Assembly (NCBI RefSeq): GCF_001514065.1
Contig: NZ_KQ948427.1
Coordinates: forward strand, 1 to 64,000
Direction of reading: 5' to 3'
DNA from: Streptomyces antibioticus
Lineage (GTDB): Bacteria > Actinomycetota > Actinomycetes > Streptomycetales > Streptomycetaceae
Length of the DNA stretch: 64,000 nucleotides
Shown: piece after piece, positions 27,600-38,727 of the stretch
Numbering within the stretch: the first letter of the stretch is position 1
Layout: every line of letters starts with the position of its first letter
Program-made: the position numbers and the translations under genes
Notes under the pieces: model-generated
Database searches by the model: none
What the model saw: only the letters and a program-made list of their open reading frames with translations
Told to the model about the DNA's origin: nothing

Positions 27600-27915
27600 T
27601 GCCCGTCCCCTCGCGTTGCCGTTCGCCGGTTCCATGGGTGAGAAACGTCTGCCCCATTGTTCGCGTCCGGCACCTTTCCCGGGCGCGAAGAACCGGCCAT
27701 CAGGGTGCGCGGGGGCGCACGGGCGGCTCTCGTACCCCGCCCCGCGCTTCGAATGCAGGGGCATGGGCCGAGGTTGACGGGGTACAGGCCGCGGCTGCCA
27801 CCGGGGCCTGGTCCGCCTCGCCGTGCGCGTCCCGCCGCCAGGGGGCAGATTTGATCCCGGAGCCCGTCGCACGCCGGGCTCCGGGCCCTTCGGGGCGCGC
27901 GAGGAGGTGGTCGGC
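27600..27915. other. Divergent intergenic region with a hairpin in the phosphatase leader
   Basis: This 316-bp stretch separates ramR (minus) from a SpoIIE-type gene (plus) and I see no gene in it. It contains TTGACG at 27773-27778, a possible -35 for the plus-strand gene, without a convincing -10. A perfect 11-bp stem, CCCGGAGCCCG at 27856-27866 with its complement at 27875-27885, lies 30 bases before the start codon and would fold in the leader. Confidence 0.4.
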
Positions 27916-30051
27916 GTGTCCGACGTGCCGAGGGCCGCGCAGGCGCCGGCGACCGCCCGGACGCGGGTCGGCCGGCCGCTGCTGTCCCTGGCACTGGCCT
28001 CGATGATGGACGAGGTGCACGCCCACTCGGGCGCGGTGTACCTGCTGGCGTCCGGCGAGCCGGTCCTGGAGATGGCGGTGATGGCCGGGCTGCCGCGGGC
28101 CTTCGCGGCGCCGTGGGAGCGGGTCGGGCTCAGCGCGCCGATCCCGGTCGCCGAGGCGGTCCGGGAGCGGCGGCTGGTGTGGGTGGGCGGCGAGGAGGAG
28201 ATGGCCCGCCGCTATCCGCGGATCGCGGTGGTGCTCCCCTACCCGTTCGCGCTGGCCGCGCTGCCGGTGGCGACGGCCACCAAGGTGCACGGCGCGGTCT
28301 TCGTGACCTGGCCCGGCTCACATCCGCCGGAGTTGTCGGACCGGGAGCGGGACCATCTGAGCGCGGCCTGCGGGCGGCTGGCGGTACGCCTGGAGCGGGC
28401 CGCCGAGGAGAGCCGCCCGGTGTTCCCGGAACCGGATCTGCTGGCCGGGACGGCGGTCGGCGGGGCGGCGGGCACGCTCGGCACGGTGGAGGCGGCCCGG
28501 ATGGTGTCCCGGCTGCCGTACGGACTGTGCTCGCTGGATCTGCACGGCCGGATCGCCTTCGCCAACGCGGCGGCGGCCGAACTGATCGGCGTCCCCGTCA
28601 GCAGCCTGCTCGGCACCCAGCCGTGGGCGTCGGTGCCGTGGCTCAACGACCCGGTGTACGAGGACCGTTACCGGGCCGCGCTGATCAGTCAGCAGACGAC
28701 GTCGTTCGTGGCACTGCGGCCGCCCGGCGACTGGCTGTCGTTCCGGCTGTATCCGAGCACGACCGGGCTGAGCGTGCGCATCAGCCGGGCGCGGGCGGTG
28801 GCGGAGATGAGCCGGGGCGCTCCGCAGGGCGACGGCGCCCCCTCCCGGCTCGTGACCATCTCGCAGGTGCTGAGCCTGGCCGGGGCGCTCACCGAGGCGG
28901 CGGGCGTGGAGGACGTGGTGCAGCTGGTCGCGGACGAGATCGTCCCGGCGGTGGGCGGCCAGGCCGTGGCCATGCTCGGGTCCCGGGCGGGGCGGCTGCA
29001 TGTGCTGGGCCACCGCGGCTATCCCGACCCGCATGTCGTGGAGCGGTTCGACGGGCTGCCGCTGACCGAGCCGACGCCGGGGACGCACGCCCTGAACAGC
29101 GGGGTGCCGGCGTTCTTCGACTCGCGGCAGGAGCTGGAGCGCCTGTATCCGGCCCGGAACGCGACCCCGGACGGGTTCGCCGCCTGGGCGTATCTGCCGC
29201 TGATCGCCTCCGGCCGGCCGGTAGGCACATGTGTGCTGGCCTACGCCGAACGGCACCAGTTCCCGGCGGACGAACGGGCGGTCCTGACGAGCCTCGGCGG
29301 GCTGATCGCGCAGGCCATGGAACGGGCGATGCTGTACGACGCCAAGCACCGGCTCGCCCACGGCCTCCAGGAGGCCCTGCTCCCCCACACGCTCCCGGCG
29401 CTGCCCGGCATCCACGCGGCCGCCCGCTATCTGCCGGCCACGCAGGGGATGGACATCGGCGGCGACTTCTACGACCTGGTGCCCTCGCACGGGGTGGCCT
29501 CTGCCGTCATCGGGGACGTGCAGGGGCACAACGTCACGGCGGCCGGGCTGATGGGGCAGATCCGGACCGCGGTACGGGCGTACACGACCGTCGGACAGGC
29601 CCCGCAGGACGTCATGAGCAGCACCAACCGGCTGCTGATCGACCTGGGCTCGGACCTCTTCGCCAGCTGTCTTTACCTCCGGCTGGAGCCGGCCCACGGG
29701 CGGGCCGTGATGGCACGGGCGGGCCACCCCCCGCCGCTGCTGCGCCGCCCGGACGGCAAGGTACGCGTCCTCGACCTGGCCGGCGGCCCGCTGCTGGGCA
29801 TCGACGGCTCGGCGACGTATCCGACGACCGAGGTCGAGCTGGCTCCGGGCAGTGTGCTGGCCCTCTACACCGACGGCCTCATCGAATCGCCCGGGGTCGA
29901 CATAGAGGACGCGCTCGCCGATCTGGGCCGGCTGCTGGCGGAGGCCGGGGATCTGCCGCTGGACGAGTTGGCGGACGAACTGGTGGGGCAGGGTGGGGCC
30001 GCACAGGAGCGGAGCGACGACGTGGCGTTGCTGCTGCTGCGGGCGCGGTGA
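27916..30051 (+). CDS. SpoIIE/PP2C phosphatase with GAF and PAS domains
   Basis: A 711-residue regulator. An N-terminal GAF-like domain (about 15-165) is followed by a PAS domain (about 195-280), a second GAF (about 310-470) and a C-terminal PP2C/SpoIIE phosphatase (about 485-710) with GGDFYDLVPS, GDVQGHNVTAAGLMGQ, YTDGLIESPG and RSDDVALLLL. Unlike the other two such proteins here it lacks the RsbW-like ATPase. It probably dephosphorylates an anti-sigma antagonist in response to a signal. The GTG at 27916 follows GAGGAGG. It is divergent from ramR, so phosphatases flank the lanthipeptide locus on both sides. Confidence 0.85.
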   Translation: MSDVPRAAQAPATARTRVGRPLLSLALASMMDEVHAHSGAVYLLASGEPVLEMAVMAGLPRAFAAPWERVGLSAPIPVAEAVRERRLVWVGGEEEMARRYPRIAVVLPYPFALAALPVATATKVHGAVFVTWPGSHPPELSDRERDHLSAACGRLAVRLERAAEESRPVFPEPDLLAGTAVGGAAGTLGTVEAARMVSRLPYGLCSLDLHGRIAFANAAAAELIGVPVSSLLGTQPWASVPWLNDPVYEDRYRAALISQQTTSFVALRPPGDWLSFRLYPSTTGLSVRISRARAVAEMSRGAPQGDGAPSRLVTISQVLSLAGALTEAAGVEDVVQLVADEIVPAVGGQAVAMLGSRAGRLHVLGHRGYPDPHVVERFDGLPLTEPTPGTHALNSGVPAFFDSRQELERLYPARNATPDGFAAWAYLPLIASGRPVGTCVLAYAERHQFPADERAVLTSLGGLIAQAMERAMLYDAKHRLAHGLQEALLPHTLPALPGIHAAARYLPATQGMDIGGDFYDLVPSHGVASAVIGDVQGHNVTAAGLMGQIRTAVRAYTTVGQAPQDVMSSTNRLLIDLGSDLFASCLYLRLEPAHGRAVMARAGHPPPLLRRPDGKVRVLDLAGGPLLGIDGSATYPTTEVELAPGSVLALYTDGLIESPGVDIEDALADLGRLLAEAGDLPLDELADELVGQGGAAQERSDDVALLLLRAR

Positions 30052-30120: not shown

Positions 30121-31482
30121 TCAGTGGGTCTCGGTCAGGCCGGAGTCGCCGTTGTCCGCGCCCGCGCCGACGTCCTGGCCGGTGTCCTGGCCGGTGTCCT
30201 GGCCGCCGACCTCCTGACCGGCCTCTTCACCGCCGACTTCCTGGCCGCCGACCTCCTGACCGGCCTCCTCGCCGCCCACTTCCTGTCCTGCGCCGGCTTC
30301 CTCGCCCGCACCGGCCTGGTCACCGGCGCCCGCTTCCTGGCCGCCGCCCGCCGCGTCGCCCGCGCCGAGGGTCGCGCCGACCGCCTCCAGGGCGGTGGTG
30401 ACCGGCTGGAAGAAGGTCTCGCCGCCGACCGTGCAGTCGCCGCTGCCGCCGGAGGTCAGGCCGATGGCCAGTCCGTCCTGGGTGAACAGCGAGCCGCCGC
30501 TGTCGCCGGGCTCGGCGCAGACGTCGGTCTGGATGAGGCCGGTGACGGTGCCCTCCGGGTAGTTCACCGTGGCGTCGAGTCCGAGGACCTGGCCGTCGTT
30601 GAGCCCGGTGGTGCTGCCCATTCTGAAGACCTGGAGGCCCACCTCGGCGTCGGCGGCCTGGGAGATCTGCACAGTCCTGCCGTCGCCGACGTTGACCTCG
30701 CTCGGCGCGACCGTGGCCGGGTCGTCGTACTTCACGAGCGCGAAGTCACCGTCGCCGGGGAACGTGGCCTGGTCGACGGTGGCGATCGGCTGGCCGTCCT
30801 GCGCGTCGGCCCACTCGGCGGCCGCGACCCCGCAGTGACCGGCCGTCAGGAAGGCGGGGCTGCCGTCGCCCGCGGTGACGTTGAAACCGGCCGAGCAGCG
30901 GGCGCCGCCGCCGAAGATGGCGTCGCCGCCGGAGACGAAGGTCTTGAAGGTGCCGGCCGACTTCTTGATGGTCGCCATGCCCGAGCCGAGCGTGTCGACC
31001 GTCGACTCCAGCTGGTCCCACTTGGCGCCGGTGACCGTGCTGTCGGCGGTGACCAGGATCTTGTTCGTCCTGGGGTCGACGGCCCACGAGGTGCCCGGGA
31101 TGGTCGCCTGGGCCTTCAGCGTCTGTGCGCCCGCGGCGAGTTCGGCGAGGCTGTTGTCGACCTCGCGTATCTTCGCGCCGGCCTTCTCGGCCTGGACGAC
31201 CACGTTGTTGTTGTCGCCCGAGATGACGTTGACGACCAGCTGCTTCTGGTCCGTGTCGTAGTACGAACCGGCGAAGGCCTCGCCGAGCAGTTCCTGGAGC
31301 TGTGAGGCGAGATCCGATGCGTCCGACGCCTTCAGCGTCTTCGGGGCGACCGCGGCTCCGTTGGACGAGGAGCCGTCCTGGGAGGCGTTCGCGTTGGGCA
31401 GGAGGATCGCCGCCGCTCCGAGCGCCACCACGCCGCCTGCCGCGATAGCGGCCTTGCGCTTGGGGATTCGCTTGTGACTCAA
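30121..31482 (-). CDS. Streptogrisin-like S1 serine protease with repetitive acidic C-terminal tail
   Basis: A 453-residue preproprotease. The signal sequence (RIPKRKAAIAAGG, cleaved near 34) is followed by an alpha-lytic-type propeptide and a chymotrypsin-fold domain beginning near FGGGARCSAGF. The triad is H216 (TAGHC), D246 (GDFALV) and S328 (GDSGGS). The start is a TTG at 31482 with AGGAGG nine bases upstream; SHKRIPKRK is typical of this family. From about residue 373 comes an 81-residue Gly/Glu/Gln-rich tail with a 14-residue repeat, longer than in usual streptogrisins. The tail lacks an LPxTG or membrane segment. It likely cuts proteins outside the cell. Confidence 0.92.
   Translation of the reverse strand: MSHKRIPKRKAAIAAGGVVALGAAAILLPNANASQDGSSSNGAAVAPKTLKASDASDLASQLQELLGEAFAGSYYDTDQKQLVVNVISGDNNNVVVQAEKAGAKIREVDNSLAELAAGAQTLKAQATIPGTSWAVDPRTNKILVTADSTVTGAKWDQLESTVDTLGSGMATIKKSAGTFKTFVSGGDAIFGGGARCSAGFNVTAGDGSPAFLTAGHCGVAAAEWADAQDGQPIATVDQATFPGDGDFALVKYDDPATVAPSEVNVGDGRTVQISQAADAEVGLQVFRMGSTTGLNDGQVLGLDATVNYPEGTVTGLIQTDVCAEPGDSGGSLFTQDGLAIGLTSGGSGDCTVGGETFFQPVTTALEAVGATLGAGDAAGGGQEAGAGDQAGAGEEAGAGQEVGGEEAGQEVGGQEVGGEEAGQEVGGQDTGQDTGQDVGAGADNGDSGLTETH
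30198..30267 (-). repeat. 42-bp tandem repeat in the protease C-terminal tail
   Basis: The identical 28-base strings at 30198-30225 and 30240-30267 (beginning CCTGGCCGCCGACCTCCTGA on the plus strand) are exactly 42 bases apart. They encode two copies of a 14-residue unit beginning EEAGQEVGG. Related shorter units flank them, so the tail has probably grown by slippage. Confidence 0.75.
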
Positions 31483-31681
31483 ACTTCTCGACCTCCTGAA
31501 GGACGGGGTCAGTGCCACCGTTCGTCGGCGGCTGTTCGGGGCGCCTGGATGGCAGTGGGTACGCAGGAGGCACGTGGGGCGTTCAATTCCGTTTGTTGGC
31601 AGTCTCTTTGCAGTACCGAATCGGCCACGGGACCGGCCGGGGTCCGCGTCCGGCGGCCCGGGAGCGGGAACAATCCCCCAT

Positions 31682-32095
31682 ATGACGATGACCACCGCCG
31701 AAGCCGACAAGATCCTCTCCGCCAACTTCGCCCCTTGGGTGCTCGACCTGGGCCTGTCGGTCGAGTCCCTGGGCGAGGACCGGGCGACCCTGCGACTTCC
31801 CTGGTCGGACCGGCTGTCCCGGGAGGGCGGCGCGCTGTCGGGCCAGGCGCTGATGGCCGCCGCGGACACCGCCACCGTGATCGCCGTGGCGGCGGCGCGG
31901 GGCGGCTACGGGCCGATGACGACCGTGCAGCAGTCGACCTCGTTCCAGCGGGCGGTGTCCGGTTCGGATGTCCTGATCCAGGCGGTGATCACCAAGCTGG
32001 GCCGGCGCATGGCGTTCGCGGACATCACGATGACCGACGCGGAGTCGGGGGAGCTCGCGGCGCGGGCGAGCACGGTCTACGCACTTCTCGCCTGA
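31682..32095 (+). CDS. PaaI/hotdog-fold thioesterase
   Basis: A 137-residue hotdog-fold protein with the PaaI-type core GGALSGQALMAAADTATVIA, where the Asp after AAA is the expected catalytic residue, and a C-terminal beta strand of the type SGELAARASTVYALL. Such enzymes hydrolyse acyl-CoA thioesters in the cytoplasm, often aromatic acyl-CoAs. The ATG at 31682 is followed by an in-frame ATG two codons later. It is divergent from the protease gene and stands alone. Confidence 0.85.
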   Translation: MTMTTAEADKILSANFAPWVLDLGLSVESLGEDRATLRLPWSDRLSREGGALSGQALMAAADTATVIAVAAARGGYGPMTTVQQSTSFQRAVSGSDVLIQAVITKLGRRMAFADITMTDAESGELAARASTVYALLA

Positions 32096-32553
32096 CGACC
32101 GATCTGACACGGTCCGCGATCGGTCGGCAACGGTCCGTCCCGAAGTTCCCGCGGAATCCCGGCTTCAGCGAATCTGCACATCCAATACCCAACCAAGTCA
32201 CCGTGCGCGGCGGATCTGCACAAGCGTGCTCCGCCGCGTACGTCATTGGGGCGGGAGTGTCGGATTCGCTTCCCGGGCCGCAAGTCCTTGTATGAACCGA
32301 AGACGTGCCGGGTGTGAAGAAGTCGGCGCCGAGACGTGCGCACGCCTGCACGGTTCGGCACCTGTGGGACTCAAGTGCCCAGGTGAGGCGGTTGGTTGAT
32401 TGGAAGCCCGCGCCCGGCGCGTGCTTACATCCATCGCACCGCGGCAGCCGCCGAGGCTTTCCGGGAACGGGGGCCTGGCGTCTGCGGCACGCGGTCGCCC
32501 CTGCCAGGGGTCCGCTCCCCCTTGTGAATATCCATATGAAGGGAAGTTCCACC
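32096..32553. promoter_or_regulatory. 458-bp region upstream of the exported-peptide operon, no gene seen
   Basis: No reading frame with convincing codon usage or ribosome-binding site was found. The base composition is less GC-biased than nearby genes between about 32140 and 32400, as expected for regulatory DNA. Promoter-like TTGATT occurs at 32396-32401, but no -10 box lies at normal spacing. AAGGGAAG precedes the peptide start. The operon promoter should lie here. Confidence 0.4.
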
Positions 32554-32769
32554 ATGAACTCCACCCCCCAGGTTGAGACCGTCGAGATCTCCGACGCCGA
32601 GCTCGACAACGTCTCCGGCGGCCTGCAGCTGAACGCCCTGGGCACCGTCACCGGCCTGGTGGACGGCATCGCCCCGGTCTCCGGCCTGGTCGACACGGTC
32701 GTCGGCACGGTCGAGGGCACCACCGGCCTCTCCGTGGCCCCGGTCACGAACCTGGTCGCCGGTCTCTGA
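32554..32769 (+). CDS. Double-glycine-leader peptide exported by the adjacent C39/NHLM system
   Basis: A 71-residue precursor. Residues 1-23 form an acidic leader with the ELDNVSGG ending typical of double-glycine leaders cut by C39 peptidases. The predicted 48-residue core has no Cys, Lys, Arg, His, Phe, Tyr or Trp, only three acidic residues, and consists of Gly/Val/Leu/Thr-rich imperfect repeats (GTVTGLVDG, APVSGLVDT, VVGTVEGTTGLSV, APVTNLVAGL). It cannot form lanthionine. It is followed by an HlyD-like protein and two ABC transporters, but by no modification enzyme. It may be an unmodified bacteriocin-like, surface-active or self-assembling peptide. The family label and leader are well supported; the function is unknown. 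Confidence 0.85.
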   Translation: MNSTPQVETVEISDAELDNVSGGLQLNALGTVTGLVDGIAPVSGLVDTVVGTVEGTTGLSVAPVTNLVAGL

Positions 32770-32785
32770 TCGCACCTCGTGCCGT

Positions 32786-32818
32786 GAGTCCCGGAGCCGC
32801 TCCCCGGCTCCGGGACTC
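32786..32818 (+). terminator. Perfect 14-bp hairpin after the peptide gene (attenuator)
   Basis: GAGTCCCGGAGCCG (32786-32799) and CGGCTCCGGGACTC (32805-32818) form a perfect stem with a five-base loop, starting 17 bases after the peptide stop and 69 bases before the next start. Partial read-through would make the peptide transcript far more abundant than the transporter transcripts. Confidence 0.8.
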
Positions 32819-32886
32819 TCGGATGTCCTGACTCAACCGGCTGCCGACAGCCGGTCCTTCCTCGTTTTCAGGTGAGGGAAAGTTCC

Positions 32887-33693
32887 GTGCAGTTCCGCCA
32901 ACAGGCCCTCGCCAAGCTCCAGTCACCGGAGGACCTCGACCTTCCGGTGCGGTTCGCCCGCCCGCAGGGCTGGCTCGCGCTGTCCGTGACGGTGGTCGTG
33001 ATGGCCGCCGCGTCGGTGTGGGCGGTGACCGGTTCGGTCGCCTCCACCGTGGGCGCGCCCGCCATCCTCACCCACGGGCAGGGCAGTTACATCCTCCAGA
33101 GCCCGGTCGCGGGACAGGTCACCGCCGTCCTCGCGAAGCAGGGCGAGCAGCTGCCCGCCAACTCCCCGGTGCTGAAGGTGCGTACCGCCGACGGCGACAC
33201 CGTCGTCCGGTCGGTCGCCGCGGGCCGCGTCACCGCGCTCGCCGCCACCATCGGCCAGATCATCCAGACCGGCGCCAACGTGGCAGCGGTCGAGAAGGTC
33301 GCGCACACCTCCGATCCGCTCTACGCCACCGTGTACGTCCCCGCCGAGAACGCCGCCTCGATCCCCGCGCACGCCGCCGTGGACCTGACGGTGTCGTCGG
33401 TGCCGACGCAGGAGTACGGCGTGCTGCGCGGCCATGTGAAGTCGGTGGACCGTTCGGCGCAGTCGGCGCAGCAGATCTCCGCGTTCCTCGGCGACAGCCA
33501 GCTCGGCGAGCAGTTCACGAAGGACGGCAGGCCGGTGGCCGTGACGGTGAAGCTGGACAAGTCGTCCGGCACGAAGAGCGGTTACACATGGTCGTCCGCG
33601 GACGGGCCGCCGTTCGCCCTCACCTCCATGACCGTGGCCCAGGGTTCGATCCGTCTCGCCGACCAGCGTCCCATCGATTGGCTGCTGCCGTGA
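32887..33693 (+). CDS. HlyD/NHLM-type membrane fusion protein
   Basis: A 268-residue protein starting at a GTG with AGGGAAAG upstream. One transmembrane helix (about residues 29-55) is followed by biotinyl-lipoyl-like hammerhead halves: GSYILQSPVAGQVTAVLAKQ with QGEQLPANSPVLKV, and SVAAGRVTALAATIGQIIQT. This is the adaptor of the NHLM peptide exporter, which in this single-membrane organism would span from the transporter into the wall. The stop codon overlaps the start of the C39 transporter (GTGA), implying coupled translation. Confidence 0.85.
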   Translation: MQFRQQALAKLQSPEDLDLPVRFARPQGWLALSVTVVVMAAASVWAVTGSVASTVGAPAILTHGQGSYILQSPVAGQVTAVLAKQGEQLPANSPVLKVRTADGDTVVRSVAAGRVTALAATIGQIIQTGANVAAVEKVAHTSDPLYATVYVPAENAASIPAHAAVDLTVSSVPTQEYGVLRGHVKSVDRSAQSAQQISAFLGDSQLGEQFTKDGRPVAVTVKLDKSSGTKSGYTWSSADGPPFALTSMTVAQGSIRLADQRPIDWLLP

Positions 33694-35909
33694 GCACCGC
33701 ACAGGACACTCGCAGCCGCCGCCGGTCCGCCCCGCCGAAGCGCCCGGTGCCGAAGGGCAAGGGAAAGACGGTCCGCACGCCCACCGTTCTCCAGATGGAG
33801 GCCGTGGAGTGCGGTGCCGCGTCCCTGGCGATGGTGCTGGGCCACTTCGGCAAGCACGTCCCGCTGGAGGAGCTGCGCATCGCGTGCGGGGTCTCCCGCG
33901 ACGGCTCGCGCGCCAGCAACCTGCTCAAGGCGGCCCGCAGTTACGGCCTCACGGCCAAGGGCATGCAGATGGACACGGCCGCCCTCGCCGAGGTGAAGGC
34001 ACCGGCGGTGCTGTTCTGGGAGTTCAACCACTACGTCGTCTACGACGGCATGGGCCGCCGCTTCGGCCGCCGCGGGGTCTACATCAACGACCCCGGCAAG
34101 GGCCGCCGGTTCGTGCCGATGGAGGACTTCGACTCCAGCTTCACCGGCGTCGTCCTGATCATGGAGCCGGGCGACGGCTTCACCAAGGGCGGCCGCAAGC
34201 CCGGGGTGCTGGGCGCGATGCCGGCCCGGCTGCGCGGCACCGCGGGCACCATGCCGGCCGCGGTGCTGGCGAGCCTGCTGCTGGTGCTGGTCGGCGCGGC
34301 GGTGCCCGCGCTGAGCCGCGTCTACATCGACATGTTCCTCATCGGGGGCCAGACCTCGCTGCTCGGCGTGCTGTTCGCGTCGATGGGGACGTGTGTGGCG
34401 CTCACCCTGGTGCTGACCTGGCTGCAACAGGCGAACCTGCTGCGCGGCCGGATCATCTCCTCGACCCTGTCCAGCGCTCGCTTCCTGCGCCATCTGCTGC
34501 GGCTGCCGGTGACGTTCTTCTCCCAGCGGAGCCCGGCCGACCTGGTGCAGCGCCTCCAGTCGAACGACGCGGTGGCCGAGACGCTGGCCCGCGACCTCGC
34601 GGCGGCAGGCGTGGACGCGGTGGTCGTCGTCCTGTACGCCGTCCTCCTCTACACCTACGACCCGCAGTTGACGTTCGTCGGCATCGGCGTCGCCCTGCTG
34701 AACATCGTCGCCATGCGCGTGGTCATCCGGCTGCGCGCCACCCGCACCGCCAAACTCCGCGCGGACAGCGCCCGGTTGACCAACACGGCCTACACGGGCC
34801 TTCAGTTGATCGAGACGATGAAGGCGACCGGCGGCGAGGACGGCTACTTCCGAAAGTGGGCCGGGCAGCACGCCACGACCCTGGAGGAGCAGCAGCGGCT
34901 CGGGGTGCCGTCCGCCTGGCTGGGCGTGGTCGCGCCGACGCTGGCCTCGCTGAACAGCGCGGTGATCCTGTGGATCGGCGGCATGCGGGCCGTCGAGGGC
35001 GGCATCTCGGTCGGTCTGCTGGTCGCCTTCCAGTCGCTGGTCACCCGCTTCACCGCCCCGATCACCCGCCTCAACGGCGTCGCGGGCCGCATCCAGGACT
35101 TCGCGGCCGATGTGGCCCGCCTCAAGGACGTGGAGAACTTCCAGGCCGACCCGCTCTACGGCCGCCCCGGCGGCGAGTCGACCCGCCGGCTGCACGGGCA
35201 CGTGGAGCTGCAGAACATCTCCTTCGGCTACAACCCGCTGGACAAGCCCCTGCTGACCGGCTTCGACCTGACGGTCGGCCCGGGTCAGCAGGTGGCGCTG
35301 GTCGGCGGTTCGGGCAGCGGCAAGTCGACGGTCTCCCGGCTGATATCCGGCCTGTACGCGCCGTGGGAGGGCGTCATCCGCATCGACGGCCGGCGCCTGG
35401 AGGACATCCCGCGCGGCGCCCTCGCCTCCTCCGTGTCCTTCGTCGACCAGGATGTCTTCCTCTTCGAGGGCTCGGTCCGCGACAACGTGGCGCTGTGGGA
35501 CCCGTCGATCCCGGACGACGCGGTGGTGGACGCGCTGCGCGACGCGGCCCTGTACGACGTGGTGATGCGCCGCCCCGGCGGCATCAACAGCCGGGTCGAG
35601 CAGGACGGCCGGAACTTCTCCGGCGGCCAGCGGCAACGCCTGGAGATCGCGCGGGCGTTGGTGCGGCGCCCCAGCATCCTCGTCCTCGACGAGGTGACGA
35701 GCGCGCTGGACGCCGAGACCGAGCTGACGGTGATGGACAACCTCCGCAAGCGCGGCTGTGCCTGTGTGGTGATCGCGCACCGGCTGAGCACCGTGCGCGA
35801 CAGCGACGAGATCGTCGTACTCCAGCACGGCACGATCGTGGAACGCGGACGGCACGAGGAGCTGGTGGCACGCGGTGGCGCGTACGCGGCTCTGGTCAGG
35901 GAGCGCTGA
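33690..35909 (+). CDS. C39-peptidase-containing ABC transporter (PCAT, NHLM ABC1)
   Basis: A 739-residue protein with all three parts of a PCAT. The N-terminal C39 peptidase has the catalytic Cys41 (VECGAASLAMVLGHFG), His114 (NHYVVYDG) and Asp134 (YINDPGKG). About six membrane helices span residues 180-440. The ATPase has Walker A LVGGSGSGKST, signature FSGGQRQRLEIARAL and Walker B ILVLDEVTSALD. It removes the leader after the Gly-Gly of the peptide and exports the core. All catalytic residues are intact. It is followed after one base by the second ABC protein. Confidence 0.94.
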   Translation: MSTAQDTRSRRRSAPPKRPVPKGKGKTVRTPTVLQMEAVECGAASLAMVLGHFGKHVPLEELRIACGVSRDGSRASNLLKAARSYGLTAKGMQMDTAALAEVKAPAVLFWEFNHYVVYDGMGRRFGRRGVYINDPGKGRRFVPMEDFDSSFTGVVLIMEPGDGFTKGGRKPGVLGAMPARLRGTAGTMPAAVLASLLLVLVGAAVPALSRVYIDMFLIGGQTSLLGVLFASMGTCVALTLVLTWLQQANLLRGRIISSTLSSARFLRHLLRLPVTFFSQRSPADLVQRLQSNDAVAETLARDLAAAGVDAVVVVLYAVLLYTYDPQLTFVGIGVALLNIVAMRVVIRLRATRTAKLRADSARLTNTAYTGLQLIETMKATGGEDGYFRKWAGQHATTLEEQQRLGVPSAWLGVVAPTLASLNSAVILWIGGMRAVEGGISVGLLVAFQSLVTRFTAPITRLNGVAGRIQDFAADVARLKDVENFQADPLYGRPGGESTRRLHGHVELQNISFGYNPLDKPLLTGFDLTVGPGQQVALVGGSGSGKSTVSRLISGLYAPWEGVIRIDGRRLEDIPRGALASSVSFVDQDVFLFEGSVRDNVALWDPSIPDDAVVDALRDAALYDVVMRRPGGINSRVEQDGRNFSGGQRQRLEIARALVRRPSILVLDEVTSALDAETELTVMDNLRKRGCACVVIAHRLSTVRDSDEIVVLQHGTIVERGRHEELVARGGAYAALVRER

Positions 35910-35910
35910 G

Positions 35911-38727
35911 ATGACGACCGCACCCGAGGGGGACCTCGTCCTCCAGGCCCTCGGCTCGATGGGCACGCCGTACGACCTCGCCGGGCACAACCGCCTGGAC
36001 CTCGAGGGGCCGCAGGTGCTGTGGCTGGTGGCATCGGGGGCCGTGGACCTGTTCGCGGTGGACGCCGAACAGCAGGGCCACTGGCACCACTTGGGCCGCC
36101 TGGAGGCGGGCTCGCTGCTGCTCGGCCCGACGCCTGGACCCCAACACACCCTGGTGGCCCGTCCGTTGCGGGACTGCGTGGTGCACCGCATCGGGCTGCG
36201 CGAGCTGTACCAGCCCGCGAACACGCAGACCTGGTCCTACGACGAGTACGGCAACCCGCAGTACGTCCCGCCGACGACGAGCCCGCTGGAGTACGCCCTC
36301 GCCCTCGGCGTCGGCCGCAGCCTGTCCATCCTCTTCCAGGCGCCGATGGCCAGCGAACGCGCCGCGGAGATCACCGACGACGACGTCTTCTGGATGCAGG
36401 TCCCGCCGGGCAGTGTGCAGTACGGCTCGCTGTACGGCGCGGAGGCCGCCGCCGATCTGCTGATGGACCCCGCGGTGTGGCAGTCCATGGTCGACCAGCA
36501 GTACCGGCTGCTGACCACGCTGGACCGCTGGATCGAGCAGCTGGAGCGCACCCACGAGACGCGCACCGCCGAGGGCATCAAAGCCGGCGAGGCGGTGCGC
36601 GCGCAGGCCGACCGGACGCTGCTGGCGTCGATCGGCAAGCCGTCCGGCAAGCGCGCCACGGCCGCCGACGCGGACGCCTCGTACGCGGCGTGCAAGCTGG
36701 TGGCGCAGGCGGCCGGGATCACCCTGGCCGACCCGGCGCAGTCCGGCACCGGCAGCGACCGGCTCGACCCGGTGGAGCAGATCGCGCTCGCCTCGCGGGT
36801 CCGCACCCGGGCGGTCCGGCTGGACGGCACCTGGTGGCGGGACAACATCGGCCCGCTGGTCGGTCATCGGGCACTGTCGGGGGCGCCGGTCGCGCTGCTG
36901 TGGCGGCGCGGTGGCTATGTGGCGGTGCATCCGGCGACGGGCCGGGAGACGCCGGTCGAGAAGGCCAACGCGGAGGAGTTCGAGCCGCGCGCGGTGATGT
37001 TCTACCGTCCGCTGCCCGACCGGGCGCTCAGTCCGCTGCGGCTGCTGCGGTTCAGCATGCAGAACATGGGCGGCGACCTGACGAACCTCCTGCTCAGCGG
37101 CCTGGTCACGGTGGCGATCGGCGCGATCGTGCCCATCGCCACCGGCAAGGTGCTCGGCGAGTTCGTACCGAAGGCCCAGACGCATCTGATCGTCCAGGTC
37201 TGTCTGGCGGTGATGGTCGCCAGCTTCGTCGCCGCCACCTTCATGCTGCTGCAGAACCTGACGATCCTGCGCCTGGAGGGCCGGATCGAGGCGACCCTCC
37301 AACCGGCCGTGTGGGACCGGCTGTTGAGGCTGCCCACCAAGTTCTTCACCGAGCGTTCCACGGGTGAGCTGGCGAGCGCGGCGATGGGCATCAGCTCGAT
37401 CCGCCGGCTGCTGGCCGGAGTCGGTCCGGTGGTGGCACAGTCGGTGACCGTCGGCGCGATGAACCTGGGGCTGCTGTTCTGGTACAGCGTGCCGATGGCG
37501 TTCGCGGCGATCGGCATGCTGGTCGTGATCGCCGGGGTGTTCCTCGGGCTCGGACTGTGGCAGGTGCGCTGGCAGCGGCGTCTGGTGGTGCTCGGCAACA
37601 AGCTGAACAACCAGGCGTTCCAGACCCTGCGCGGCCTGCCCAAGCTGCGCGTCGCGGCCGCCGAGAACTACGCCTACGCTGCCTGGGCCGCCCAGTTCGC
37701 GCGCAGCCGGGAGCTCCAGCAGAAGGTGGGGCGGATCAAGAACCTCACCACGGTGATGGGCGCGGTGTATCTGCCGGTCTGCACCCTGCTGATGTTCATG
37801 CTGCTGGCGGGCCCGGCCCGCGGGTCGATGTCGGCGGCGGCGTTCCTGAGCTTCAACACCTCGGTGACGATGGTGCTGACGTCCGTGACCCAGCTGACCG
37901 GCGCGTTTGTGTCGGCGGTGGGCGCGCTGCCGCTGTTCGAGGAGATCAAGCCGGTCCTGGAGGCCACCCCGGAGGTGCGCACGGCGAGCACCCGGCCGGG
38001 CCCGCTGACCGGCGGGATCGAGGCGCGCCGGCTGTCCTTCCGGTACTCGGACGACGGCCCGCTGATCCTCGACGACGTGTCCTTCGAGGTGAAGCCGGGC
38101 GAGTTCGTGGCGATCGTCGGCCCGAGCGGCTGCGGCAAGTCGACGCTGCTCAGGCTGCTGATCGGCTTCGACCCGCCGGTCTCCGGCAGTGTGCTGTACG
38201 ACGGGCAGGACCTGGCGGCCCTCGACCAGTCGGCGGTGCGCCGGCAGTGCGGGGTGGTGCTCCAGCACGCCCAGCCGTTCACCGGCTCGATCATGGACGT
38301 CATCTGCGGCACCGAGCCGTACACCCCGGAGGAGGTCATGGCGGCCGCGCAGATGGCGGGGCTCGCGGAGGACATCCAGCGGATGCCGATGGGTCTGCAC
38401 ACGATCGTCTCCGGCAGCGGTGCCGTCTCCGGCGGCCAGCGTCAACGGCTCATAATCGCCCAGGCGTTGATCCGCCGGCCGCGCATCCTGTTCTTCGACG
38501 AGGCGACCAGCGCCCTCGACAACGAGACGCAGCGCACGGTCATCGAGTCCACCAAGGCCCTCAACGCCACCCGCATCGTCATCGCGCACCGCCTGTCCAC
38601 GGTGCTGGACGCCGACCGGGTGATCGTGATGGAGGACGGCAAGGTCGCCCAGCAGGGCCCGCCCGCCCAACTCCTCGCGGACACGAACGGACGGCTGCAC
38701 GAGCTGGTGCGGCGGCAGATGGCGTAG
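35911..38727 (+). CDS. NHLM-type second ABC transporter with cyclic-nucleotide-like N-terminal domain
   Basis: A 938-residue protein of the NHLM ABC2 type. Residues 1-110 resemble a cNMP-binding beta-roll, followed by a degenerate region (about 110-370) that may derive from an inactive peptidase, about six transmembrane helices (about 390-660), and an ATPase with Walker A IVGPSGCGKST, signature VSGGQRQRLIIAQAL and Walker B ILFFDEATSALD. It should work with the C39 transporter as a heteromer. It ends three bases from the convergent hydrolase gene, with no terminator visible between them. Confidence 0.9.
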   Translation: MTTAPEGDLVLQALGSMGTPYDLAGHNRLDLEGPQVLWLVASGAVDLFAVDAEQQGHWHHLGRLEAGSLLLGPTPGPQHTLVARPLRDCVVHRIGLRELYQPANTQTWSYDEYGNPQYVPPTTSPLEYALALGVGRSLSILFQAPMASERAAEITDDDVFWMQVPPGSVQYGSLYGAEAAADLLMDPAVWQSMVDQQYRLLTTLDRWIEQLERTHETRTAEGIKAGEAVRAQADRTLLASIGKPSGKRATAADADASYAACKLVAQAAGITLADPAQSGTGSDRLDPVEQIALASRVRTRAVRLDGTWWRDNIGPLVGHRALSGAPVALLWRRGGYVAVHPATGRETPVEKANAEEFEPRAVMFYRPLPDRALSPLRLLRFSMQNMGGDLTNLLLSGLVTVAIGAIVPIATGKVLGEFVPKAQTHLIVQVCLAVMVASFVAATFMLLQNLTILRLEGRIEATLQPAVWDRLLRLPTKFFTERSTGELASAAMGISSIRRLLAGVGPVVAQSVTVGAMNLGLLFWYSVPMAFAAIGMLVVIAGVFLGLGLWQVRWQRRLVVLGNKLNNQAFQTLRGLPKLRVAAAENYAYAAWAAQFARSRELQQKVGRIKNLTTVMGAVYLPVCTLLMFMLLAGPARGSMSAAAFLSFNTSVTMVLTSVTQLTGAFVSAVGALPLFEEIKPVLEATPEVRTASTRPGPLTGGIEARRLSFRYSDDGPLILDDVSFEVKPGEFVAIVGPSGCGKSTLLRLLIGFDPPVSGSVLYDGQDLAALDQSAVRRQCGVVLQHAQPFTGSIMDVICGTEPYTPEEVMAAAQMAGLAEDIQRMPMGLHTIVSGSGAVSGGQRQRLIIAQALIRRPRILFFDEATSALDNETQRTVIESTKALNATRIVIAHRLSTVLDADRVIVMEDGKVAQQGPPAQLLADTNGRLHELVRRQMA

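Follow-up and report, generated by a model that had tools for sequence, protein, structure and literature searches.

Known peptide exporters and the Streptomyces locus

The NHLM/NHLP export module, for which 1 to 12 NHLP precursors per genome have been reported, brings together exporter proteins of the families TIGR03794, TIGR03796 and TIGR03797 with TOMM or lanthipeptide enzymes (PMC2887384). Here we analyse an operon whose two ABC proteins belong to the latter two families and whose adaptor has TIGR03794 as its best family, just short of the cut-off; it lies in the first 64,000 nucleotides of contig NZ_KQ948427.1 of Streptomyces antibioticus (assembly GCF_001514065.1). This stretch, referred to below as the window, forms the start of contig C6 in a 10.1-Mb genome. 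The operon encodes a double-glycine precursor peptide, an HlyD-like adaptor, an ABC exporter with a C39 peptidase domain, and a second NHLM ABC protein. It differs from the described module in its leader, which is of the double-glycine type and 23 amino acids in length rather than a long NHLP or Nif11 leader, and in that no linked TOMM or LanM gene was found.

Peptidase-containing ABC exporters that handle sets of Gly-Gly peptides are known from pneumococci; the peptide set of RtgAB is co-regulated, and the specificity of RtgAB and of ComAB/BlpAB resides in motifs of the signal sequence (PMC7018657). The Streptomyces system resembles them in that one peptidase exporter would, judging from sequence, serve a whole set of Gly-Gly peptides. 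It is set apart by its two-ABC-protein NHLM exporter, by substrates scattered over a large chromosome, and by its occurrence in Streptomyces.

The closest described counterpart is the SCO0753-SCO0756 gene cluster of S. coelicolor, reported in 2019 with expression data as a hydrophobic, Cys-free peptide encoded upstream of an HlyD protein and two ABC proteins that form a type-I-like exporter (PMC6629963). According to that report, no gene was induced more strongly than SCO0753 in a dispersed-growth strain whose SCO5282 kinase is activated (log2 of 6.3 by RNA-seq and 8.1 by quantitative reverse-transcription PCR), and it was almost silent, together with its exporter genes, in the null mutant (PMC6629963). 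In passages of other papers, the same locus is labelled as bacteriocin or efflux. The S. coelicolor cluster is followed by the exopolyphosphatase gene SCO0757, and a gene of the Ppx/GppA family (one member scanned) follows in 26 of the 81 loci compared here. Since SCO0753-0756 is already in print, the operon itself is not new, and the suggestion of the initial annotation that it may be a distinct class is not supported in the sense of a newly seen one. The relevant passages of the 2019 report treat only the exporter-linked (cis) peptide and mention neither the unlinked (trans) precursors nor the shared upstream element described below. A literature search retrieved nothing that dealt, by title or abstract, with unlinked members of this precursor family; as subscription papers are poorly covered, their absence from print is not established. 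The new part is a dispersed, apparently co-regulated substrate family.

We consider it fairly probable that, throughout the genus, streptomycetes possess a set of co-regulated and probably unmodified peptides that is served by a single NHLM-type exporter and perhaps acts at the hyphal surface. This reading draws on gene order, sequence motifs, the sharing of a leader and of an upstream element, the co-occurrence of leader and exporter, a conserved hairpin, and the lack of a recognised adjacent modifying enzyme.

A common leader in linked and unlinked precursors

The relatives considered here are the best 80 of 218 stretches matched by a search with the adaptor; all are titled Streptomyces, and together with the window they constitute 81 cis loci. 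The closest among those taken is that of Streptomyces justiciae, with an adaptor 98% identical. In all 80 relatives, as in the window, the adaptor gene is preceded by a precursor gene (64 distinct precursors among the 80), an arrangement that is therefore not due to chance. Wider counts derive from a genus sample of 150 Streptomyces genomes, in 109 of which the exporter scores above its cut-off, and from a class-wide sample of 296 genomes (28 Streptomyces and 268 others).

On a different contig (C8:87011), the S. antibioticus genome encodes one further precursor, whose leader is the same and whose core is unrelated. Used as a query, this precursor yields matches in 93 of the 150 Streptomyces genomes at E 0.01, many of them far from the exporter. 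The leader of about 23 amino acids ends in S/A-G-G and is retained in the trans precursors, whose cores form several groups that are unrelated to one another. A leader profile of 23 positions finds matches in 111 of the 150 genomes at E 0.1. When leader and exporter are scored together at E 1e-4, 106 genomes contain both, 3 the exporter only, 2 the leader only and 39 neither (Fisher p 5.6e-30, without correction for phylogeny); at E 0.1, the corresponding numbers are 106, 3, 5 and 36. Both leader-only exceptions are weak: genome G001 has a completeness of 79%, and in genome G119 the match to the exporter is split in two. In the class-wide sample, the leader is detected at 1e-3 in 22 of the 28 Streptomyces genomes and weakly (7e-4) in 1 of the 268 others; TIGR03797 matches at 1e-150 occur in 24 and 10 of them, respectively.

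For 95 of the 150 leader matches listed, the exporter is at most 6 kb away; the other 55, in 46 genomes, have no exporter at that distance. Setting aside four of the latter (those of G001 and G119, and those of G081 and G002, where an adaptor-size open reading frame follows near the contig end) leaves at least 51 unlinked precursors in at least 42 genomes. The counts of trans precursors are lower bounds, as the leader matches are those listed and the genus-wide element pattern demands exact matches. For the trans loci, 54 stretches were taken from the genus sample, with 50 trans candidates labelled L131-L180; L148 and L149, which are cis precursors at contig ends, were omitted from the core and element counts, so that these refer to 48 trans loci. 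The main biology lies outside the operon delimited by the initial annotation, in unlinked precursors that have their leader and upstream element in common with it.

A shared upstream element

When the upstream regions of the 81 cis loci were aligned with that of the trans paralogue, a common block became apparent. Anchoring on this block brought out a bipartite promoter-like element of the form YTGG-N15/16-CGTGCTTTGATC, which precedes the start codon by 58-170 nt in the trans loci. The strict pattern, YTGGN{15,18}CGTGNTTNSATC, is found in 73 of the 81 cis and 26 of the 48 trans loci, with a spacing of 16 in all 73 cis cases and of 15 (18 loci) or 16 (8 loci) in trans. A loosened form, TGG-N16/17-GTGNTTNNATC (N16-17 before GTG), covers 77 of the 81 cis loci and 38 of the 48 trans loci, and none of 1754 random windows drawn from the latter. 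With a matrix derived solely from cis sites, 40 of the 50 trans-candidate loci score higher than the 95th percentile for random windows, and an earlier regular expression for the downstream half of the element alone recovered 45 of the 50. Searching with the downstream part by itself (TTKATCCNNCGCACCGC) at two mismatches was too loose (80 matches versus 18 for the reversed pattern) and was discarded.

In the 10.1-Mb S. antibioticus genome, YTGGN{15,18}CGTGNTTNSATC has exactly two matches, one before each precursor gene, and the reversed-pattern control has none. Across the 150 genomes, from whose loci the pattern had itself been derived, there are 123 matches versus 6 for the reversed pattern; 94 have a listed leader match no more than 400 nt away, 8 are beside the exporter and 21 elsewhere. 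The element could be recognised as a promoter by a specific sigma factor, or it could be the site of an activator. Because SCO0753 depends on SCO5282/5283, this two-component system is a candidate regulator, either direct or indirect. In one group of trans loci (L151, L154, L156, L159, L165), the next gene resembles, by eye, a sigma-70 family regulator that could bear on the control of the shared element.

Peptide cores and the search for modifying enzymes

The 48-residue core of the S. antibioticus precursor lacks Cys, Lys, Arg, Met, Phe, Tyr and Trp. The same seven residues are absent from all 62 distinct cis cores, whose mean charge is -2.6 and whose grand average of hydropathicity is 0.97; these statistics apply to the 81 cis loci and do not extend to cis peptides that have diverged further, for example L181-L184. 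A single Cys is present in 7 of the 48 trans cores and two in none. With 42-56 amino acids, the cores are rich in small residues, hydrophobic and, on average, acidic. The cis core is well conserved across 25 aligned species. Identity as a lanthipeptide was considered and rejected, as none of the 62 cis cores contains Cys and the S. antibioticus genome has no LanC-like gene at 1e-8; lanthionine is thus excluded for the cis cores.

The initial annotation had noted that no modifying enzyme adjoins the operon in the window and had called for conserved extra genes to be sought in homologous loci. The first statement holds, and the 81 loci do contain conserved flanking families; none of those identified is a known peptide-modifying enzyme, with several families left unscanned. 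The 40 neighbours of 20 trans precursors, scanned with Pfam at 1e-5, include no LanC, YcaO, radical SAM or ATP-grasp protein. They comprise AraC, MFS, kinase, permease, arginase and CNNM families, single oxidoreductases and other unrelated families. Thus, no linked or dedicated modifying enzyme was recognised among the flanking genes scanned or the 40 trans neighbours, and since none appears to travel with either the cis or the trans precursors, the products are most likely unmodified.

The initial annotation also envisaged modification by an enzyme encoded elsewhere. Such an enzyme could act before export and be, for example, a YcaO, a radical SAM or an ATP-grasp protein or one that modifies proteins in general, a route that we regard as unlikely. 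The cores are rich in Ser, Thr and Gly, and the three YcaO matches in the S. antibioticus genome might allow azole chemistry on Ser/Thr; the leaders match a model of ATP-grasp targets weakly, with scores under the cut-off, and related NHLM exporters are accompanied by TOMM-type genes. This route is weakened by the exclusion of lanthionine, by the lack of a match to an enzyme for ribosomally synthesized and post-translationally modified peptides among the 40 trans neighbours (14 of which match nothing), and by the distribution of candidate enzymes: of the 109 exporter-bearing genomes, 32 are devoid of LanC (1e-8), 43 of YcaO (1e-15) and 14 of both. In the 41 other genomes, LanC is present in 37 and YcaO in 34.

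The related exporters with TOMM-type genes are found at L185, from another family, where YcaO and SagB genes and an NHLP-type leader below the cut-off are present, and at L190, from Streptomyces, with a SagB gene. Neither locus possesses a leader of the present family by regular expression or by profile at 1e-3; apparently, both are TOMM clusters, in natural contrast to the Streptomyces operon, which is enzyme-free. L186-L189, L191 and L192 were scanned for leader-like open reading frames only. At L196 (S. cadmiisoli), the exporter is 57% identical, and hypothetical proteins are annotated upstream; L195 is unannotated.

Architecture of the operon and its surroundings

The features of the operon are compiled in the table.

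Features of the S. antibioticus peptide export operon (positions in the window)
Feature	Position	Strand	Evidence
Bipartite promoter-like element TTGG-N16-CGTGCTTACATC	32400..32431 (with conserved downstream block to 32442)	+	genome-wide pattern and alignment
Double-glycine precursor	32554..32769	+	71 aa: 23-aa leader MNSTPQVETVEISDAELDNVSGG and 48-aa core; in 80/80 relatives
Hairpin, 14 bp	32786..32818	+	between precursor and adaptor gene; no U-run
HlyD-like adaptor	32887..33693	+	268 aa; TIGR03794 E 9.6e-44; PF13437 above cut-off
C39-peptidase ABC exporter (NHLM ABC1)	33690..35909	+	TIGR03796 1021.5 bits, cut-off 853.3; PF03412
Second NHLM ABC protein (ABC2)	35911..38727	+	TIGR03797 896.7 bits, cut-off 709.4, residues 255-937

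Coordinates and profile matches bear out the gene order given by the initial annotation, as well as its prediction of a 48-residue core behind the Gly-Gly motif and of an intact export system. Its description of the genes as overlapping or separated by very short gaps is accurate for the C39-ABC gene, whose start overlaps the adaptor stop by 4 nt, but not for the precursor and the adaptor, between which a gap of 117 nt (counted to position 32887) accommodates the hairpin. The adaptor starts with a GTG codon after an AGGGAAAG ribosome site, a longer reading beginning at 32872. Its best family by far is TIGR03794, with 149.9 bits just under the cut-off of 156.2 and the best stretch at residues 109-273. 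Both ABC proteins exceed the curated NHLM cut-offs and contain Walker A, signature and Walker B motifs. The C39 domain has Gln35, Cys41, His114 and Asp134, which we take to be its catalytic residues. With these C39 residues intact and a Gly-Gly leader on the precursor, the system qualifies as a peptidase-containing ABC transporter with a double-glycine substrate. The precursor has no match to the NHLP/Nif11 models TIGR03793 or TIGR03798 up to E 1. At its N-terminus, ABC2 extends for about 250 residues (window positions 35911-36670) beyond the TIGR03797 match.

The fold of 32767-32890 has a z-score of -4.8. A stem of at least 9 bp is located 3' of the precursor in 79 of the 81 loci versus 58 of 405 random windows, and changes on both sides affect 3 of 12 pairs (35 sequences). 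The hairpin is a probable attenuator or partial terminator.

Among the 81 loci, a secreted S1-type protease family and a SpoIIE/GAF phosphatase are each represented in 76, followed by MFS proteins (41), thioesterases (33, a rough count), LuxR-type regulators (29), Ppx/GppA phosphatases (26) and alpha/beta hydrolases (9). These families were identified by Pfam from one member each, several others of similar or smaller frequency being left unscanned, and the gene caller had a minimum of 70 amino acids and merged the ABC proteins. In the window, the protease, with an alpha-lytic prodomain, is encoded at 30121-31875 (-), and a SpoIIE/GAF/PAS phosphatase at 27823-30051 (+), upstream of the operon. 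The secreted protease could trim the exported peptide. Near the trans precursors, two tandem genes for CNNM/CBS-type membrane proteins, one of them scanned, lie directly upstream in L161, L162 and L180, and adjoining genes resemble WXG100 and Tad-type proteins, by eye, in L160, L163, L167 and L171.

Weighing the readings

Several points weigh against a genus-wide regulon of unmodified peptides. Three exporter-bearing genomes of the genus sample, and 2 of the 24 Streptomyces genomes with an ABC2 match in the class-wide sample, have no leader match; some of the leaders that went into the profile come from the very genomes then tested, and the co-occurrence statistic ignores phylogeny. Away from the precursors listed and from the exporter lie 21 of the 123 element matches. 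The strict pattern misses many precursors, as it turns up at just 26 of the 48 trans loci and in only 85 genomes of the 150, fewer than the 106 that have both leader and exporter. With regard to modification, the S. antibioticus genome does have three YcaO matches, 14 of the 40 trans neighbours are without any Pfam match and a few single ones are oxidoreductases, and the scans for radical SAM and ATP-grasp proteins were confined to gene neighbours. Constraint on the cores is modest, as the median ratio of non-synonymous to synonymous substitution rates is 0.585 for cores versus 0.329 for leaders (78 equal-length precursors), and the structural route via AlphaFold2, run on 25 precursors, gave a poor model (pLDDT 57.8, pTM 0.23). 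Finally, the operon was matched to SCO0753-0756 by gene order; SCO0753 is given as 77 amino acids.

C39/ABC export of peptides with a double-glycine leader is the classic bacteriocin arrangement, and the products might accordingly be class II-like bacteriocins that act on other bacteria. Weak matches of the leaders to bacteriocin models, below the cut-off, and the dispersed, divergent cores, which would suit an arsenal, fit such a function; most class II bacteriocins are cationic, whereas the cis cores are net acidic and have neither Lys nor Arg. Moreover, no conserved small immunity-like gene was recognised beside the operon in the 81 loci (among called genes of at least 70 amino acids, some families being unscanned), and conservation of the cis core in 25 species would be unusual for competition toxins. 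We therefore judge a bacteriocin function to be improbable. A role as intercellular signals is more doubtful still: Gly-Gly peptides exported by peptidase-containing ABC transporters do include signals (PMC7018657) and the cis core is conserved across species, but hydrophobic cores of 48 residues seem long for pheromones, and no adjacent receptor kinase was recognised, the only signalling-like genes identified being those of the SpoIIE/GAF and LuxR-type (29 of 81 loci) families.

A working model and its meaning

In the model of a co-regulated set of unmodified peptides, the shared promoter-like element would drive both the operon and the unlinked precursor genes, and the common leader of about 23 amino acids would direct each precursor, whether made in cis or in trans, to the exporter. 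The C39 domain would then remove the leader during passage through the ABC/HlyD assembly, and the hairpin behind the first gene would allow the peptide to be produced in excess over the pump. The released cores, hydrophobic, acidic and most likely unmodified, would act most plausibly at the hyphal surface or in the extracellular matrix, a site suggested by their composition and by one published mutant.

Hydrophobic surface peptides and proteins of Streptomyces include SapB, which is a lanthipeptide, and the chaplins, which use Sec export; the likeness to them is one of functional analogy. Both also appear in PMC6629963. We offer, as a tentative and less likely extension of our model, that a dedicated regulon of scattered unmodified peptides, processed and exported by one NHLM-type hub and jointly activated through a single specific promoter element, may constitute, next to these two, a third kind of peptide with a morphogenetic role at the surface or in the matrix.

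What was a lone 'bacteriocin' annotation thereby becomes a secretion regulon across the genus that can be put to the test, with one exporter, many unlinked substrates and one element. The analysis supplies a defined peptide set for mass spectrometry and a leader that may serve as an export tag, and it would offer a handle on the dispersal versus clumping of Streptomyces hyphae. It further suggests that a modified natural product should not be taken for granted wherever an NHLM exporter is present.

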